A DNA stretch of 53,549 bases from Bacillota bacterium. Lineage in GTDB: Bacteria > Bacillota > Dethiobacteria > Dethiobacterales > Dethiobacteraceae. A program made the position numbers and the translations under genes. The notes under the pieces were generated by a model, which saw only the letters and a list, made by a program, of their open reading frames with translations, made no database searches and was not told the origin of the DNA. The stretch is from positions 1-53,549 of the forward strand of contig QLUR01000018.1 in the NCBI GenBank assembly GCA_018725565.1, read 5' to 3'. Shown here in pieces: positions 7,202-13,388 of this stretch (position 1 is its first letter; each line of letters starts with the position of its first letter).

Positions 7202-7462
7202 TTAGTCTCCATAGTGTGAACGACAATCCGCAATTATGAGCAGATCGCCTTCTATACGGTATACCAAGCGATTAGTATCATCTATCCGGCGCGACCACCA
7301 ACCGTAGAAGTCGCCCCGTAGCGGTTCAGGCTTTCCTGTCCCATCATAACCGTTTCGCTCAATGTCCCTTATAAGCTGATTCACCCGCCTTAGTGTCTTT
7401 TTGTCCTGATTTTGCCAATATAAATAGTTTTCCCAAGCCTTATCAGTCCATAGTTTTTCCAT
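7202..7462 (-). CDS. YoeB/Txe-family mRNA interferase toxin
   Basis: An 86-residue RelE-superfamily toxin that cleaves mRNA at the ribosome when free of its antitoxin. Family landmarks are visible: WTDKAWENYLYW at the start, LIRDIERNGYDGTGKPEPL in the middle, and RLVYRIEGDLLIIADCRSHY at the end, holding the catalytic Arg and the terminal His-Tyr. The length is the family's usual one and the frame is intact. The ATG lies six bases after the stop of the RelB-like antitoxin gene, so the two form one operon. It is the intact module of the tRNA-Pro element. Confidence 0.92.
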   Translation of the reverse strand: MEKLWTDKAWENYLYWQNQDKKTLRRVNQLIRDIERNGYDGTGKPEPLRGDFYGWWSRRIDDTNRLVYRIEGDLLIIADCRSHYGD

Positions 7463-7468
7463 CGCTGG

Positions 7469-7723
7469 TCAATCTTCTATGAGTTCATGGGCAGTCAGTT
7501 TACCCTCGTTTGCTTCTTGGATAGACTTCCGCAATATTTTCATATTGGCCTCATTATAAAATGGGTCTATCCTCGTTGTGATTTCAAAGGGGATACCGCC
7601 TTGCCGCACTGCTTGACTTACGAATAAATTGACCGCCGATGAAAAGCTTAAACCTAAGGTGTCAAATAGTTTTTCGCCTCGCTCTTTCAAAGTATCATCA
7701 ATCCTGATATTCACTTGTGCCAT
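7469..7723 (-). CDS. RelB/DinJ-family antitoxin
   Basis: An 84-residue ribbon-helix-helix antitoxin (AQVNIRIDDTLKERGEKLFD, then LGLSFSSAVNLFVSQAVRQG). The N-terminal part binds DNA and represses the operon, the C-terminal part would wrap the toxin. Start chosen at ATG 7723, eight bases after AAGGAG; the earlier ATG at 7741 includes that ribosome binding site. RelB/DinJ antitoxins usually pair with RelE or YafQ, while YoeB more often pairs with a Phd/YefM type, so this pairing is a mixed one, which does occur. Confidence 0.9.
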   Translation of the reverse strand: MAQVNIRIDDTLKERGEKLFDTLGLSFSSAVNLFVSQAVRQGGIPFEITTRIDPFYNEANMKILRKSIQEANEGKLTAHELIED

Positions 7724-7856
7724 GCCAAACACTCCTTTCAAATTATAGTTTATAGCATTCTCTATACATTGTCAACTGATACGTAGCAGGCTGCAGGACT
7801 TAATTTTGGTGTCGACGATGAGCTATCAGAGACATCGAGATTGGCTTGCTCTAAAA

Positions 7857-7904: not shown

Positions 7905-7994
7905 AACAACCACGGGAGCCGAAAACGCCCGTGGTTGTTGAGTTTTTATGGTCGGAGCGACAGGATTTGAACCTGCGGCCTCTTGACCCCCAGT
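7905..7994 (-). repeat. tRNA-Pro 3' half plus terminator (att-like copy 2)
   Basis: This 90-base segment matches 6279-6367 with a single-base indel. Here it forms part of the intact tRNA-Pro gene, so this is the rebuilt side of the presumed integration. Confidence 0.85.
7907..7937 (-). terminator. Terminator hairpin of tRNA-Pro
   Basis: Ten-base stem CAACCACGGG (7907-7916) with CCCGTGGTTG (7928-7937), 11 bases beyond the tRNA CCA end. The T-run after it on the minus strand is weak here; the copy at 6281-6311 is followed by TTTTT. Confidence 0.6.
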
Positions 7995-8025
7995 CAAGCG
8001 CGCTACCAAGCTGCGCCACGCCCCG
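7949..8025 (-). tRNA. tRNA-Pro (GGG)
   Basis: On the minus strand the acceptor CGGGGCG pairs with CGCTCCG (one G-U), the anticodon stem is CTTGA/TCAAG with a CTGGGGG loop, so the anticodon is GGG. The T-arm has GGTTCAAATCC and CCA is encoded (7951-7949). It is the presumed attachment site of the neighbouring element. Confidence 0.95.
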
Positions 8026-8111: not shown

Positions 8112-8140
8112 TTCACTACAAAAGCACTTCACGGTATGAT
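8112..8140 (+). promoter_or_regulatory. Possible promoter of the nitrilase-like pair
   Basis: TTCACT (8112-8117), 17 bases, TATGAT (8135-8140), about 60 bases before the chosen start. The -10 matches five of six, the -35 four of six. Confidence 0.45.
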
Positions 8141-8200: not shown

Positions 8201-9085
8201 GTGCAGGCAACCACTCTCTCCTTTGCCGAAAGCTCTTTTTGCTCGCCGGCTGAGTACCAGGTCTGGCTGGAGGCGCGTCTGCCGGCAGGTTCACCGGAGA
8301 TGGGAGCTTTGCTCGTTCTTCCTGCTTACCTGGCACTGCTTGCCGCCTGGCGTTTCGGCGACCTTGGGAATCCTGTAAGTTTTGAAGAAGCAATCTCTTT
8401 GTCTGCCGGGCTGCCGGACCGCTGGCATGAGAACTGGCTGGAACTGCACAGGGTCCTCGCCCGCAGACTTAAGGCCTGGCTTGTGCCCGGCACGGCTTTT
8501 GTAGTTGAACAAGGCCGGCTGTTTCACACCTGCAGTCTATTTTCCCCGGACGGAGACCTTCTTGGCAGCCAACGTCAACTTTTTCTCACTCGCGAGGAGC
8601 GCAAGCTCGGACTCTCCCGCGGCTGCGAGCTGCGGGTGTGGGAGACACCGTTCGGCCGGCTCGGCATCATTGTCGGTACCGACGCCTGGTACCCGGAAGC
8701 CGGCAGGATCCTCGCTCTGCAAGGCGCCGAGATCATTTGCTGCCCCGGAGCGTTGCCGAAAGGAGAAAGCCGTTGGCGGCAGATCAGCGGAATTTGGGCC
8801 CAGGTCCAGCAGAACCAGTTCTTTGCCGTGGAAAGTCAGTTAGTGGCTGATATTGCCGGTCAGGAATTCGCGGCTGAGTCCCTGGTCCATGCCCCATGCG
8901 AGATGACTGAAGGCTGCACTGGAATTGTGGCCCGGGGAGGCCTGTACGGCAGCGCACTGTCCGCAACACTTGACAGAGAAGCACGGCGCAAAGTCATCAC
9001 CAGTTACCCTCTGCTGCGCCTGCTCAGGCCCGGCGCTTACAGTGTCATCACAGAATCAGGAGGTGCAGCGAGTGAAATTCCGTGA
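8201..9085 (+). CDS. Nitrilase-superfamily pseudoenzyme (catalytic triad absent)
   Basis: It has the carbon-nitrogen hydrolase fold pattern and aligns along most of its length with the next gene, but all three catalytic positions differ. Glu is Ala42 (LLVLPAY against LLVFPEL), Lys is Gln126 (SQRQLFLT against FQDKVHLT), and Cys is Gly159 (IIVGTDAWYPE against APVCMDATYFE). Structural landmarks such as TPFGRLG and LQGAEII are kept. It cannot work as a classical nitrilase or amidase; I infer a structural or regulatory partner of its active neighbour, as nitrilases oligomerise. The GTG at 8201 follows AGGCAGGTG at seven bases; GTG 8177 or 8180 have no such signal. The 3' end overlaps the next gene by 14 bases. 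Confidence 0.8.
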   Translation: MQATTLSFAESSFCSPAEYQVWLEARLPAGSPEMGALLVLPAYLALLAAWRFGDLGNPVSFEEAISLSAGLPDRWHENWLELHRVLARRLKAWLVPGTAFVVEQGRLFHTCSLFSPDGDLLGSQRQLFLTREERKLGLSRGCELRVWETPFGRLGIIVGTDAWYPEAGRILALQGAEIICCPGALPKGESRWRQISGIWAQVQQNQFFAVESQLVADIAGQEFAAESLVHAPCEMTEGCTGIVARGGLYGSALSATLDREARRKVITSYPLLRLLRPGAYSVITESGGAASEIP

Positions 9086-10163
9086 GCGGCTGTTCCCCTT
9101 CCGCCTGTCCTGGCAAACACGGCCGGCAGTAGTGGCAGAATATTTGCAGAGCAAAAAAAATATCGTCCGCAGTAATTGCGAAAAATTGGACCCGCGGCAA
9201 GTGGTGGCGGGCGCGGTTCAATTGGAAGTAAAGCTTTTCTCCGATGTTCGGGAATATCTTGACGAGATGCACCGGTTTACTGCTCTGGCTGCCGGGGAAG
9301 GTGTCCAGCTCCTCGTTTTTCCGGAATTAAACTCTTTGCAGCTGCTCGGCCTTATCCCCGGAATCTCAAAACTTGCACAACAAGCAGGTACGGAAGACAC
9401 CGCCGAACTGCCGGTGACGGAACTGTTCCGTCTGGTCGGCCCCGTTTTCGGGCGGATTGTGCGGCAGACCTTCTCTTGGCTGGCACAGGCTTACGGACTG
9501 TACATCATGGCCGGCAGCTTTCTGGTCCCGGACGGCGGGCGGGTGGTTAACCGGGCGCTGCTGTTTGACGCCGGCGGACGGTTAGCGGGCTTTCAAGATA
9601 AGGTGCATCTGACGGTACAGGAGAAAAAATGGGGGCTGACCAGCGGAGACTCGCTGGCCGTTTTCCCCACCCCGCTTGGGGTGTTGGCTGCTCCGGTCTG
9701 CATGGACGCCACTTACTTCGAAACCTTCCGCCTTCTGGAACGTCAGGGAGCCGAGATAGTCATGGTGCCGATAGCCAACCCTGAACAGTATAATTTCTGG
9801 CTGGCGCTGCGCGGTATTTGGCCGCGCGTTCAGGAAAGCACGGTCTATGGCCTTAAAAGCGCTTTGGTCGGCGACTTTCTGGGCTGGAAGCTGACCGGCA
9901 GGGCCGGTATCTTCGCGCCGCTTGAACTGACACAAAACAAAGACGGCGTCCTGGCTGAAACGGTTTCTGCTGTAGGGGAAGGGTTTGTCACTGCTACGCT
10001 TGACCTGGTTGCCCTCCGGCAACTCAAAGACAATCATCCCTACCTAGGTGATATTAACCCAGGACTGGAACAGAAATATTTCCCCGCCATCTACAGCGGT
10101 GCAGTACCCTTCGCTCTTAGCGCGGACGACTGCTCTTTGGCGCGGACTTCTTTTTCCGGATAA
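9072..10163 (+). CDS. Carbon-nitrogen hydrolase (nitrilase superfamily), triad intact
   Basis: A 363-residue amidase/nitrilase-type hydrolase acting on a non-peptide C-N bond; substrate unknown. The Glu-Lys-Cys triad is complete: E85 in LLVFPEL, K177 in FQDKVHLT, C210 in APVCMDA. The chain carries about 45 residues ahead of the domain, longer than most family members. The GTG at 9072 is eight bases after AGGAGG and overlaps the end of the upstream paralog by 14 bases, so translation is coupled and a heteromer is likely. Its last 73 bases overlap the 3' end of the convergent transporter gene. An earlier in-frame ATG at 8925 would lie deep in the neighbour and is not credible. Confidence 0.85.
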   Translation: MKFRERLFPFRLSWQTRPAVVAEYLQSKKNIVRSNCEKLDPRQVVAGAVQLEVKLFSDVREYLDEMHRFTALAAGEGVQLLVFPELNSLQLLGLIPGISKLAQQAGTEDTAELPVTELFRLVGPVFGRIVRQTFSWLAQAYGLYIMAGSFLVPDGGRVVNRALLFDAGGRLAGFQDKVHLTVQEKKWGLTSGDSLAVFPTPLGVLAAPVCMDATYFETFRLLERQGAEIVMVPIANPEQYNFWLALRGIWPRVQESTVYGLKSALVGDFLGWKLTGRAGIFAPLELTQNKDGVLAETVSAVGEGFVTATLDLVALRQLKDNHPYLGDINPGLEQKYFPAIYSGAVPFALSADDCSLARTSFSG

Positions 10164-11422
10164 AATAGAAAGATCAGTCCGCCGGCCAACACAAACAGCA
10201 CTGCCACCAGCGGGGTGAGCCGCACACCAAGAGGTTCTGCAACGGTACTGCCAAAAATCTGGAACAGCAAGCCGGTAGTAAACGTCGAGACACCCAGCAG
10301 CGTTTTTAAGACCAGTCCCTGCGTCCCGAAATACATGGCTTCGCGCCGCTGTCCCGATAAATCCTCTTCCAGGTCGGTAATCGAAGAAAGGATGGCATCA
10401 GGCAGGACAAACAAGCTGGACAGCGGCAACCCGGCCAGCGCCAGAACAAGGTAGGCAAAGGCTACCGGTTCAAGGCCAAATAAGGGTTGCCCCAGGAAAT
10501 AAAACAACGGCAAAATCACGACGAACTGGGCGAAAGAAGCCAGCATCACCTTTTTATGCCCCACCTTTTTTACCAGCAGGTTGACCACGGGGAAAGCCAG
10601 GAAAGCAACACCGAAAGTAGCGGCAAAAAAGGCCGAAACAGCCTCCTTCGGCATACCAAGCAGCACCGTTACATAAAAAGGCAGTGCCAGAGTAATAATG
10701 TTAAAGCCAAACCAGAAGGTGGCGTTACCTGCCAGATAGATACGGAACGCCCTGTTACGCAGCGTCGTGGCGACGGATTCCCGCAGGCCCAGAGTAGATG
10801 GTCGCGCCTCGGCGTATTTTTTTTCCCGTACGAAAAGGGGCAGATACATCAGTAACAGCCCGACCGCGGCCAGACTCCAAATCATACCCTGAAAACCAAG
10901 CCGGGATATCAGCGGACCTGAGCCTACCAGCGCTGCCGCTACCCCCAGCAGGGAAAAAACGGCCCGCAGCGTTGCCAGGTCCACCCGGTCATAGGCGGTG
11001 CGGACCAGTTCCGGCATCAGTGCCAGATATGGGCAGACATAAACTGTAAACAGGAAAAAATAAGCTGCCGTCAATATCAGCAGATATACCATGTTCAGAA
11101 GGCCGTGAGCCGGCGCCGGCGGGTGGAACAGCGCCACAAAAGCAAGTACATAAGCTATCCCGCCTGCCAGCAGGAACGGAGTGCGTCTGCCAAGCGCACT
11201 CCGGCAATTGTCGGACCAGAAACCGACAAGCGGGTCGGCCAGAGCATCAATCACCCGGCCAAAAACGAGGATAGCGCCGAAAGCGGCCGGCAACATCAAC
11301 GGGACAGCGCCTTCCACATAAAAAAACATCAGCCAGGTCACGACCAGGCGATCCAGCATTGCCCAGCCGGCTGAAGAAGCGGCATACAGCAGCTTACCGG
11401 AGGTTGGCAAATTTTTGCTCAT
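10091..11422 (-). CDS. GPH-type MFS sugar:cation symporter
   Basis: A membrane transporter of the glycoside-pentoside-hexuronide:cation symporter branch of the major facilitator superfamily (MelB-like), with about twelve hydrophobic segments over 443 residues. The landmark RVIDALADPLVGFWSD near residue 55, followed by GRRTPFLLAGG, is typical and holds the cation-binding Asp pattern. The cargo is probably a sugar or glycoside, supported only by the glycosidase-like gene just upstream: its stop (11426-11424) is one base from this ATG, and AGGAGG inside that gene's end serves as ribosome binding site. The C-terminal tail is charged and its last codons overlap the nitrilase gene on the other strand. 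Confidence 0.82.
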   Translation of the reverse strand: MSKNLPTSGKLLYAASSAGWAMLDRLVVTWLMFFYVEGAVPLMLPAAFGAILVFGRVIDALADPLVGFWSDNCRSALGRRTPFLLAGGIAYVLAFVALFHPPAPAHGLLNMVYLLILTAAYFFLFTVYVCPYLALMPELVRTAYDRVDLATLRAVFSLLGVAAALVGSGPLISRLGFQGMIWSLAAVGLLLMYLPLFVREKKYAEARPSTLGLRESVATTLRNRAFRIYLAGNATFWFGFNIITLALPFYVTVLLGMPKEAVSAFFAATFGVAFLAFPVVNLLVKKVGHKKVMLASFAQFVVILPLFYFLGQPLFGLEPVAFAYLVLALAGLPLSSLFVLPDAILSSITDLEEDLSGQRREAMYFGTQGLVLKTLLGVSTFTTGLLFQIFGSTVAEPLGVRLTPLVAVLFVLAGGLIFLFYPEKEVRAKEQSSALRAKGTAPL

Positions 11423-11423
11423 G

Positions 11424-13268
11424 TTATTCCCCTCCTGCCTTCATTTCACGACCCAAGGTGTGCCAGAGCGCAAACGCCAGGAAGCCGGCGCCTGAGGCAA
11501 AGGCCTGCCCGGTGGAAGCACGGCCGTTTACGGGCTCGACCGTTTCACAGAAATAGCCGCTGTCCATCACCGCCCGGCGGAAAAATTTCTCCTGTCCCAG
11601 GTTAAGTGCCAACAGGTCGTTTACGGCGTGCAGCGGCCAGGGATTGGATGCATGGCGGGAGGCAGCGCCGGAAATGTTCCTCCCGGCAGCGAAAAACGGG
11701 TTATGCCGGGAATGTATCCAGCGCACAGTATTCAGAAACACCAGGTCATCTTTTGTGCAAAAGCCGTAATGCGGCAGTAATTGCAAGCTCCCCGGCGGGT
11801 TGTCGTACAACTCGTAATTTCCTTTACCATTCACAGCCCAGGCAAACATAGGCCCAAACGGGCCATCCACCACCCCGTGCCGCAGGATTGCTGCGCGCAA
11901 GTCGCCGGCCATAAGGGTCATTCTTTGCGGAAATGTTAAGCCGTTTTCCTGCAGGCCGGCCAGAAAGGAGAGAGCCCTCTCCGCCAAGGCGTTGTCATAC
12001 ACCAGAAAAGGATAGCTTGGCTGGTCGTCAGATGGATCCAGGAAGGTGGCATACAGGCCAGTTTCCCTGTCCCTGGCCGCCAGCAGCTTTCCGGCAGCGG
12101 TCACCAGACCGTCTTCCATTGTATTCTCCCGTAACAGGGAAATATCACCCGTCTGCTGCAGATAGATTTTTAAAGCTAAAAAGTAAGCGGCCAGCTGGTC
12201 AAGCTCAAATCCGGGATAAAGCAATACCCCATTGATATAGTGGGCATGTTCCCCCGCCCGCTCCAGATGACGCGAAAAAACGGTCAACAGCAACTCCCGG
12301 GCCGTTTTCCGGTCCGCCAGCAGAACCCCGGGGAAACTCCACAGCAGGCAGTCCCTGCCCCAAAAAGCAGCACTGACATAATAGCGCGGGCTGCGGGAAG
12401 TAACCGCTGCCAGCTGGTCGGTATCAACCGTCCTGCCGAGCGCAAAAAAATAATTAAAAAAAAGGTTGCGGTTGGCTAACGCCCTAAAACGCTGCAGAGG
12501 CAAAACACGCGCGGCCAGCCAGCCTTCTGTTGCAGCCAGCAAAACCTGCGCTCCACGGCGGCGCAGATCAACGGTTGTGGTGGCCGCCCCACTTCCTTCG
12601 ATATTTACCGCCAGGTACAGCGGTAAGGTAAAGCTCTCGCCGGGTGCCAGTTCAACCGTCATGCCTCCTCTTGCCTCCGCTGTCTTGCCTGCTGTTACGG
12701 TGCAGCACCAAGGGCGCCCGCCCTCCAGCGACAAGGCCAGTGCGGCCAGCGGAACCTCCCGGCCCGCTAGTAACACCAGGCTTTTTGTCCACTCATCCCA
12801 CTCCATTCGGCAACGGCCGACAGGAACAGTCCGGAAAATCCGCCTGCTTACACCAGCGCAACAGACCTTAAAGCCCGCCTCGGCAGTCAGCGGTTCGCCA
12901 CCGGCATTTCTCACTTCCAGTAAATATACGGCCCCGCGGTGTCCCGGCGGAGCAAATATTTTCCCCCGCACGGCAAGAACGCCGGCTTGGCCGGAAAAAA
13001 CAGGCAGCCAGAAAAAGCGGCTGCTCCAGATCATTTTTTTTAACGGCACATCTTGCCCGTTTATTTTGCAATAAGGCGCCAGCAGCGCTTTTCCCCCCTT
13101 ACCGGTAAACTCCAGCAAGGAAAGCGCCCCCATGTGCAGGACGTTAACAGAACCGAGCCCGGCGTCCTGTGGGTCGATGTCCGGAAACGACAGGTACTCG
13201 TTGCCATGAACGAGCCATGTCTTATAAGCTTTCGCTGCCACCGGAACAGTGAGAATTTCTTCGCTCAT
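11424..13268 (-). CDS. Glycosidase-like (alpha/alpha)6-barrel protein
   Basis: A 614-residue soluble protein. The first half (to about 260) is beta-rich, and the second looks like an alpha/alpha-toroid of the six-hairpin glycosidase type, with AAFWGRDCLLWSFPGVLL near residue 310 resembling the acid-bearing segment of amylo-1,6-glucosidase and GH125-like enzymes. I infer action on an oligosaccharide imported by the coupled symporter, but I cannot point to both catalytic acids, so hydrolase, phosphorylase and mannosidase remain possible. No signal peptide is seen, so it is cytoplasmic. Start chosen at ATG 13268, preceded by GGAGG; an ATG four codons earlier lies in that signal. Confidence 0.65.
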   Translation of the reverse strand: MSEEILTVPVAAKAYKTWLVHGNEYLSFPDIDPQDAGLGSVNVLHMGALSLLEFTGKGGKALLAPYCKINGQDVPLKKMIWSSRFFWLPVFSGQAGVLAVRGKIFAPPGHRGAVYLLEVRNAGGEPLTAEAGFKVCCAGVSRRIFRTVPVGRCRMEWDEWTKSLVLLAGREVPLAALALSLEGGRPWCCTVTAGKTAEARGGMTVELAPGESFTLPLYLAVNIEGSGAATTTVDLRRRGAQVLLAATEGWLAARVLPLQRFRALANRNLFFNYFFALGRTVDTDQLAAVTSRSPRYYVSAAFWGRDCLLWSFPGVLLADRKTARELLLTVFSRHLERAGEHAHYINGVLLYPGFELDQLAAYFLALKIYLQQTGDISLLRENTMEDGLVTAAGKLLAARDRETGLYATFLDPSDDQPSYPFLVYDNALAERALSFLAGLQENGLTFPQRMTLMAGDLRAAILRHGVVDGPFGPMFAWAVNGKGNYELYDNPPGSLQLLPHYGFCTKDDLVFLNTVRWIHSRHNPFFAAGRNISGAASRHASNPWPLHAVNDLLALNLGQEKFFRRAVMDSGYFCETVEPVNGRASTGQAFASGAGFLAFALWHTLGREMKAGGE

Positions 13269-13388
13269 CCCGGCCTCCATTTTCAGAAATGTACGCTAAT
13301 TAGCAATACACTTATTCCACCTCCGGGAAAGAAATTCCTGCCAAGGGAGGCAGCAATACCTGTAAAACAGTGGCGGAAATAGAAATTT

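Follow-up and report, generated by a model that had tools for sequence, protein, structure and literature searches.

Nitrilases are usually regarded as homo-oligomers in which all subunits are active, and pseudoenzyme partners are common in biology. A close described case comes from grasses, where the NIT4A and NIT4B nitrilases are heteromeric (Jenrich et al. 2007, as cited in PMC5154151, PMC6214922 and PMC8585852) and where a NIT4A/NIT4B2 heterodimer is cited as having a changed function (PMC8585852). In a mixed assembly, an inactive nitrilase subunit carrying a Cys-to-Ala change can impose its own specificity on the active partner (PMC6214922). The bacterial gene pair described here, whose products we call P1 and P2, resembles the grass system, as the citing papers present it, in that two nitrilase paralogues would act as one hetero-oligomer; the grass proteins are of plant origin, outside any bacterial glycosidase and transporter module. 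The inactive subunit of PMC6214922 is an engineered point mutant, whereas P1 is natural and appears ancient. A literature search that covered few subscription journals returned no on-topic paper on a nitrilase with a pseudoenzyme or on GH125 with a nitrilase, and neither a natural bacterial pair of the P1/P2 kind nor the four-gene module reported below was described in the literature searched. Since partner pseudoenzymes and heteromeric nitrilases are already known, we rate the bacterial dead/live pair with its module as a new variant.

The window is a stretch of 53,549 nucleotides from a Bacillota bacterium (contig QLUR01000018.1). A first-pass annotation of this DNA had described tandem nitrilase genes with a 14-base overlap, and had given the catalytic positions as Ala42, Gln126 and Gly159 in the first and E85, K177 and C210 in the second; the coordinates and residue numbers proved right, and both products match PF00795 (CN_hydrolase) above its cut-off (P1 51.7 bits, P2 63.0 bits). 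Scores against named NCBIfam subfamilies are far under the cut-offs for both. The features of the pair are as follows.

8112..8140, + strand: candidate sigma-70-like promoter 5' of P1, TTCACT-17-TATGAT (consensus scan, 9/12 matches)
8201..9085, + strand: P1, predicted nitrilase-fold pseudoenzyme, GTG start, 294 aa (PF00795, AF2 model, fold matches)
8324..8326, + strand: P1 codon 42 (gct, Ala), catalytic Glu position
8576..8578, + strand: P1 codon 126 (caa, Gln), catalytic Lys position
8675..8677, + strand: P1 codon 159 (ggt, Gly), catalytic Cys position
9072..9085, + strand: 14-nt stretch shared by the last codons of P1 and the first of P2
9072..10163, + strand: P2, predicted triad-intact nitrilase-superfamily hydrolase, GTG start, 363 aa (PF00795, AF2 model, fold matches)

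The TTCACT-17-TATGAT element is a possible promoter of P1, a consensus match that says nothing on function. A strong Shine-Dalgarno sequence, AGGAGGTG, was read by eye within the 3' end of P1, just before the P2 start. Shortly before P1, on the reverse strand (7202-7741), there is a YoeB/RelB toxin-antitoxin pair that adjoins a tRNA-Pro gene at 7949-8025. The source genome carries two further CN_hydrolase genes away from this locus.

E85, K177 and C210 make up the catalytic triad of P2, which thus has the complete Glu-Lys-Cys set, and all three are replaced in P1; the second glutamate of the tetrad is present in both (P1 E133, P2 E184). Among 80 relatives the P2 homologue typically lies directly 3' of the P1 homologue. 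In alignments of 30 P1 rows and 26 P2 rows, the triad is broken in every P1 protein and intact in every P2 protein that spans the sites; among the P1 proteins, L016 keeps Lys alone and L027 Cys alone. Scanning named genomes gave 75 loci, mostly from Dethiobacter-like and Syntrophomonadaceae-labelled Bacillota, with further hosts among Thermosediminibacter, Thermovorax, Fervidicola, Petroclostridium, a Halanaerobiaceae MAG and an Anaerolineae MAG, and in a phylum-wide draw of 398 genomes, 77 yielded P2 relatives, of which about 70 adjoin a P1 relative. The two collections overlap, and the triad counts use de-duplicated rows. Among the 115 distinct P1 proteins readable at all three triad sites, Gln occupies the Lys site in 113 (Lys 1, Ala 1), the Glu site is Ala in 70 (Gly 22, Pro 8, Ser 5, Glu 5, others 5) and the Cys site is Gly in 87 (Ser 8, Cys 8, Ala 5, others 7); not one of the 115 has two or three triad residues. 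Their distinct P2 partners carry Glu-Lys-Cys in 108 cases out of 109. As all the canonical homologous pairs that were examined show the loss, and they come from about 35 families within the phylum, neither chance nor local decay accounts for it. Misalignment was ruled out as a cause, as the motifs align clearly in more than 100 homologues. The closest P1 homologue (L035, 59% identity) comes from a contig of 3.5 kb that is filed under Candidatus Hakubella thermalkaliphila S34. This host is not part of the main group, and either transfer or misbinning could explain the finding.

Both genes tend to be present or absent together. Among 98 genomes of the class, 47 carry both P1 and P2, five P1 only, two P2 only and 44 neither (Fisher 2e-19, a value that ignores kinship between genomes). 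Three of the five P1-only genomes have contigs that end at, inside or before P2, and the remaining two, both from genus g9 (G008, G015; loci L188, L189), have a truncated P1, no P2 and no gene for the glycosidase described below, as if P1 decays after P2 is lost. In 126 of 130 P1 loci, a set that includes some duplicates between the two collections, P2 follows P1 in the same orientation. In five genomes (L110-L114), four of one genus and one from another family, P1 and P2 lie in a single open frame; the fusion in L111 has a Gly/Pro/Ala-rich linker and retains the N-terminal helix of P2.

P1 is under purifying selection, with dN/dS between 0.09 and 0.28 in 21 of 22 close comparisons and 0.42 in one low-dS pair; values for P2 are close to these. 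Its AF2 model (pLDDT 92.1) shows a complete CN-hydrolase fold, and the best matches in a fold search were all CN hydrolases (VIA Z up to 28.1, rmsd 2.8, 258 aligned). The P2 model (pLDDT 81.8) has the standard fold, with a CN-hydrolase match of VIA Z up to 28.8 (rmsd 3.0, 268 aligned), and a helical, conserved N-terminal extension at residues 3-26. The nearest solved folds, which match both proteins over the full length, are Nit2, N-carbamoylputrescine amidase and Pyrococcus PH0642. Motif positions are shared with the nitrilase superfamily (PF00795), and P2 has its E-K-(E)-C machinery; P1 differs from the superfamily in lacking the triad and P2 in its conserved helical N-terminal extension. 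By fold and descent P1 is a CN hydrolase, yet is predicted not to be a working nitrilase.

Conservation within P1 peaks at helices NH5 (residues 165-173, mean entropy 1.00) and NH6 (190-205, 1.47), against 2.29 overall, and at a turn at 231-237; the pocket Glu site is not among these peaks. In P2, the entropy of NH6 is 0.66 against 1.91 overall, and the monomer model positions this helix poorly (residues 241-250 have a block mean pLDDT of 40). We take NH5 and NH6 to be the dimer face of the nitrilase superfamily. Dimerisation through the A interface is common to superfamily members (PMC6637149). Covariation between P1 and P2 (effective N 74) placed five NH5/NH6 by NH5/NH6 pairs in the top 200, versus 1.5 expected. 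The E166-R220 switch follows a clade, and the strongest signals, between P1 127-140 and P2 327-333, were set aside because they involve a gappy column. Interprotein covariation gives the heteromer weak support, is confounded by clade structure and was given no weight.

To place the pair among its relatives we used a quick tree of 116 rows (LG+G4). In it, P1 and P2 group with a third set, of solitary proteins, to the exclusion of other nitrilases (SH-aLRT 99). The P1 rows fall into one clade (98) and the P2 rows into a second (88); each clade holds a few divergent pair members, and a few rows labelled 'other' sit inside both the P1 and P2 regions. Those solitary sister proteins that come from the same phylum retain E-K-C. 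Given these clades and the residues of the solitary sisters, the triad loss in P1 is therefore best read as a single old event that followed a single duplication. The solitary relatives from Chloroflexi (L105-L109, 439-666 aa) retain Glu and Lys and have Gly in place of Cys in four of five cases; an HMGL-like synthase gene lies near those of L105 and L106. A plasmid-borne origin was considered and dropped, the matches being only distant CN hydrolases, none of which reached 80% query coverage. Some pairs have diverged further. Three loci (L170-L172, from G121, G201 and G287) hold a second P1-P2-like tandem in which the triad of the P2-like member is partly or wholly gone and both members look dead; G121 carries a normal pair alongside it. 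In L147 (G222) the P2-like partner reads E-K-G, its Cys gone, and in L176 (G419) it is without most of the triad. Such dead-dead pairs are few and derived.

Two reverse-strand genes, convergent with the pair, follow it.

10091..11422, - strand: GPH-type (MFS_2) symporter (PF13347, 1.7e-53)
11424..13280, - strand: GH125-like glycoside hydrolase (PF06824, 4.3e-24)

The first-pass annotation did not include this glycosidase and symporter module. The symporter is assigned to the GPH/MFS_2 type through its PF13347 domain; its score against TIGR00792 (gph; 2e-39, 135.5 bits) is under the cut-off of 231. The PF06824 match of the glycosidase is limited to residues 403-555, and no family match was found for its N-terminal half. 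Its C-terminal portion can be aligned with GH125 (PDB profile matches 2nvp, 3qt3 and 5m7i), and the alignment takes in the PSDD and late Glu motifs. D418, D419 and E579 are invariant and fall within the GH125-aligned stretches; D310, E359 and D361 are invariant as well. These acidic residues suggest an active yet unclassified glycosidase family. Compared with GH125 alpha-1,6-mannosidases, the neighbour is larger (about 620 aa) with an unmatched N-terminal half, and a distant member scores under the Pfam cut-off; it probably represents a different family of this general type.

The association recurs across genomes. An MFS symporter gene was found in 46 of the 130 P1 loci, the GH125-like gene in 69, and one or both in at least 79, many of the remaining loci lying on short contigs. 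Among the genomes of the class, 41 have the glycosidase and P1, 11 P1 without the glycosidase, four the glycosidase without P1 and 42 neither. Thermosediminibacter-like and other genomes have the order glycosidase-P1-P2-symporter on a single strand, and in one genome (L121) P2 and the glycosidase share one open frame of 1242 aa, in which an internal glycosidase start is possible. A PIG-L-type deacetylase gene (BshB-like) lies between P2 and the glycosidase in L086-L088 and L091. The upstream genes polA, fpg, coaE and isocitrate dehydrogenase, conserved in one Dethiobacteria-like family, were not counted as part of the module, being housekeeping genes that are missing beside the pair in distant taxa. 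The neighbour genes, the fusion of P2 with the glycosidase and the PIG-L gene point to glycoconjugate handling; a substrate of the mannosyl- or glucosyl-glyceramide type is speculation.

We consider it likely that P1 and P2 constitute an amidase with P1 as its pseudo-subunit, working in a module for glycoconjugate uptake and breakdown. One old duplication within the nitrilase (CN hydrolase) superfamily would have given rise to both. P2 would have kept the Glu-Lys-Cys machinery and remained an enzyme, and P1 would have lost the triad once, early, and been retained since as a pseudo-subunit. The usual A-surface helices would join the two into a heterodimer or higher hetero-oligomer, with P1 supporting the fold, the substrate pocket or the regulation of P2, and P2 alone carrying out hydrolysis. 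Together with the GPH-type symporter and the GH125-like glycosidase, the pair would probably serve the uptake and dismantling of an amide-containing glycoconjugate. Pairs of this kind occur in many anaerobic bacteria. As the loss in P1 is universal, P2 almost always intact, and the pair travels with a glycosidase and a transporter, it is very probable that the dead copy functions as a partner and is not a gene in decay. The first-pass annotation had proposed that the inactive protein is retained as a partner in an active/inactive heteromer, and had named conservation of the loss in relatives and the dN/dS of P1 as checks; the conserved loss, the dN/dS values and the natural P1-P2 fusions all support the partnership, and decay was seen in no relatives save the one genus without P2. 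For the heteromer itself, co-transcription and fusion count for less, since both are also expected of proteins that merely share a pathway.

P1 could instead serve as a subunit for ligand binding or regulation, or as an independent sensor, in which a vestigial pocket lined by Gln binds substrate, product or another small molecule and on which the P2 active site need not depend. The fixation of Gln at the Lys site and the near-invariance of Q124, D161, W199, Q203, N205, E211 and the GPCE(M/I)T region fit this reading, because together they make the edge of the P1 pocket look selected and not neutral; dead-dead pairs (L147, L170-L172, L176) do occur, and a pure role of P1 in supporting P2 catalysis leaves them unexplained. 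The Glu site, however, varies freely among A, G, P and S, the dimer-face helices are under the strongest constraint, and fusion with P2 argues for direct partnership, so that we regard this alternative as unlikely. Considerably less probable is that P1 is an enzyme of other chemistry, using different residues in the old pocket and sharing only a pathway with P2. Q124-x-Q126, D161 and E166 are strongly conserved, and C233-E234 is found in many P1 proteins, but C233 is not retained throughout the wider family (e.g. L086-L088 and L097-L100), and as the P1 family has no invariant Ser, Cys, Lys or His, P1 is left without an obvious set of nucleophile and base. That P1 is a decaying duplicate held by linkage alone may describe genus g9, with its truncated P1 and missing P2, but for the family as a whole decay is refuted by selection and conservation, the gene being full-length with an intact fold and the identical loss spanning some 35 families in a deep tree, and we give it next to no credence.

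Beyond the amidase with P1 as pseudo-subunit, a broader proposal can be put forward only tentatively: that the GH125-like glycosidase, P1, P2 and the GPH symporter form a widespread module built around an obligate hetero-oligomeric amidase, whose Gln-fixed pseudoenzyme subunit would predate the radiation of the approximately 35 families and would have turned its old pocket to substrate selection or regulation in a glycosyl-amide pathway. If true, an inactive/active pair that is natural and ancient, and fused in some genomes, would offer a clean bacterial test system for the role of pseudo-subunits in this superfamily, and the module, if true, would point to a glycoconjugate pathway of anaerobes that has gone unrecognised.
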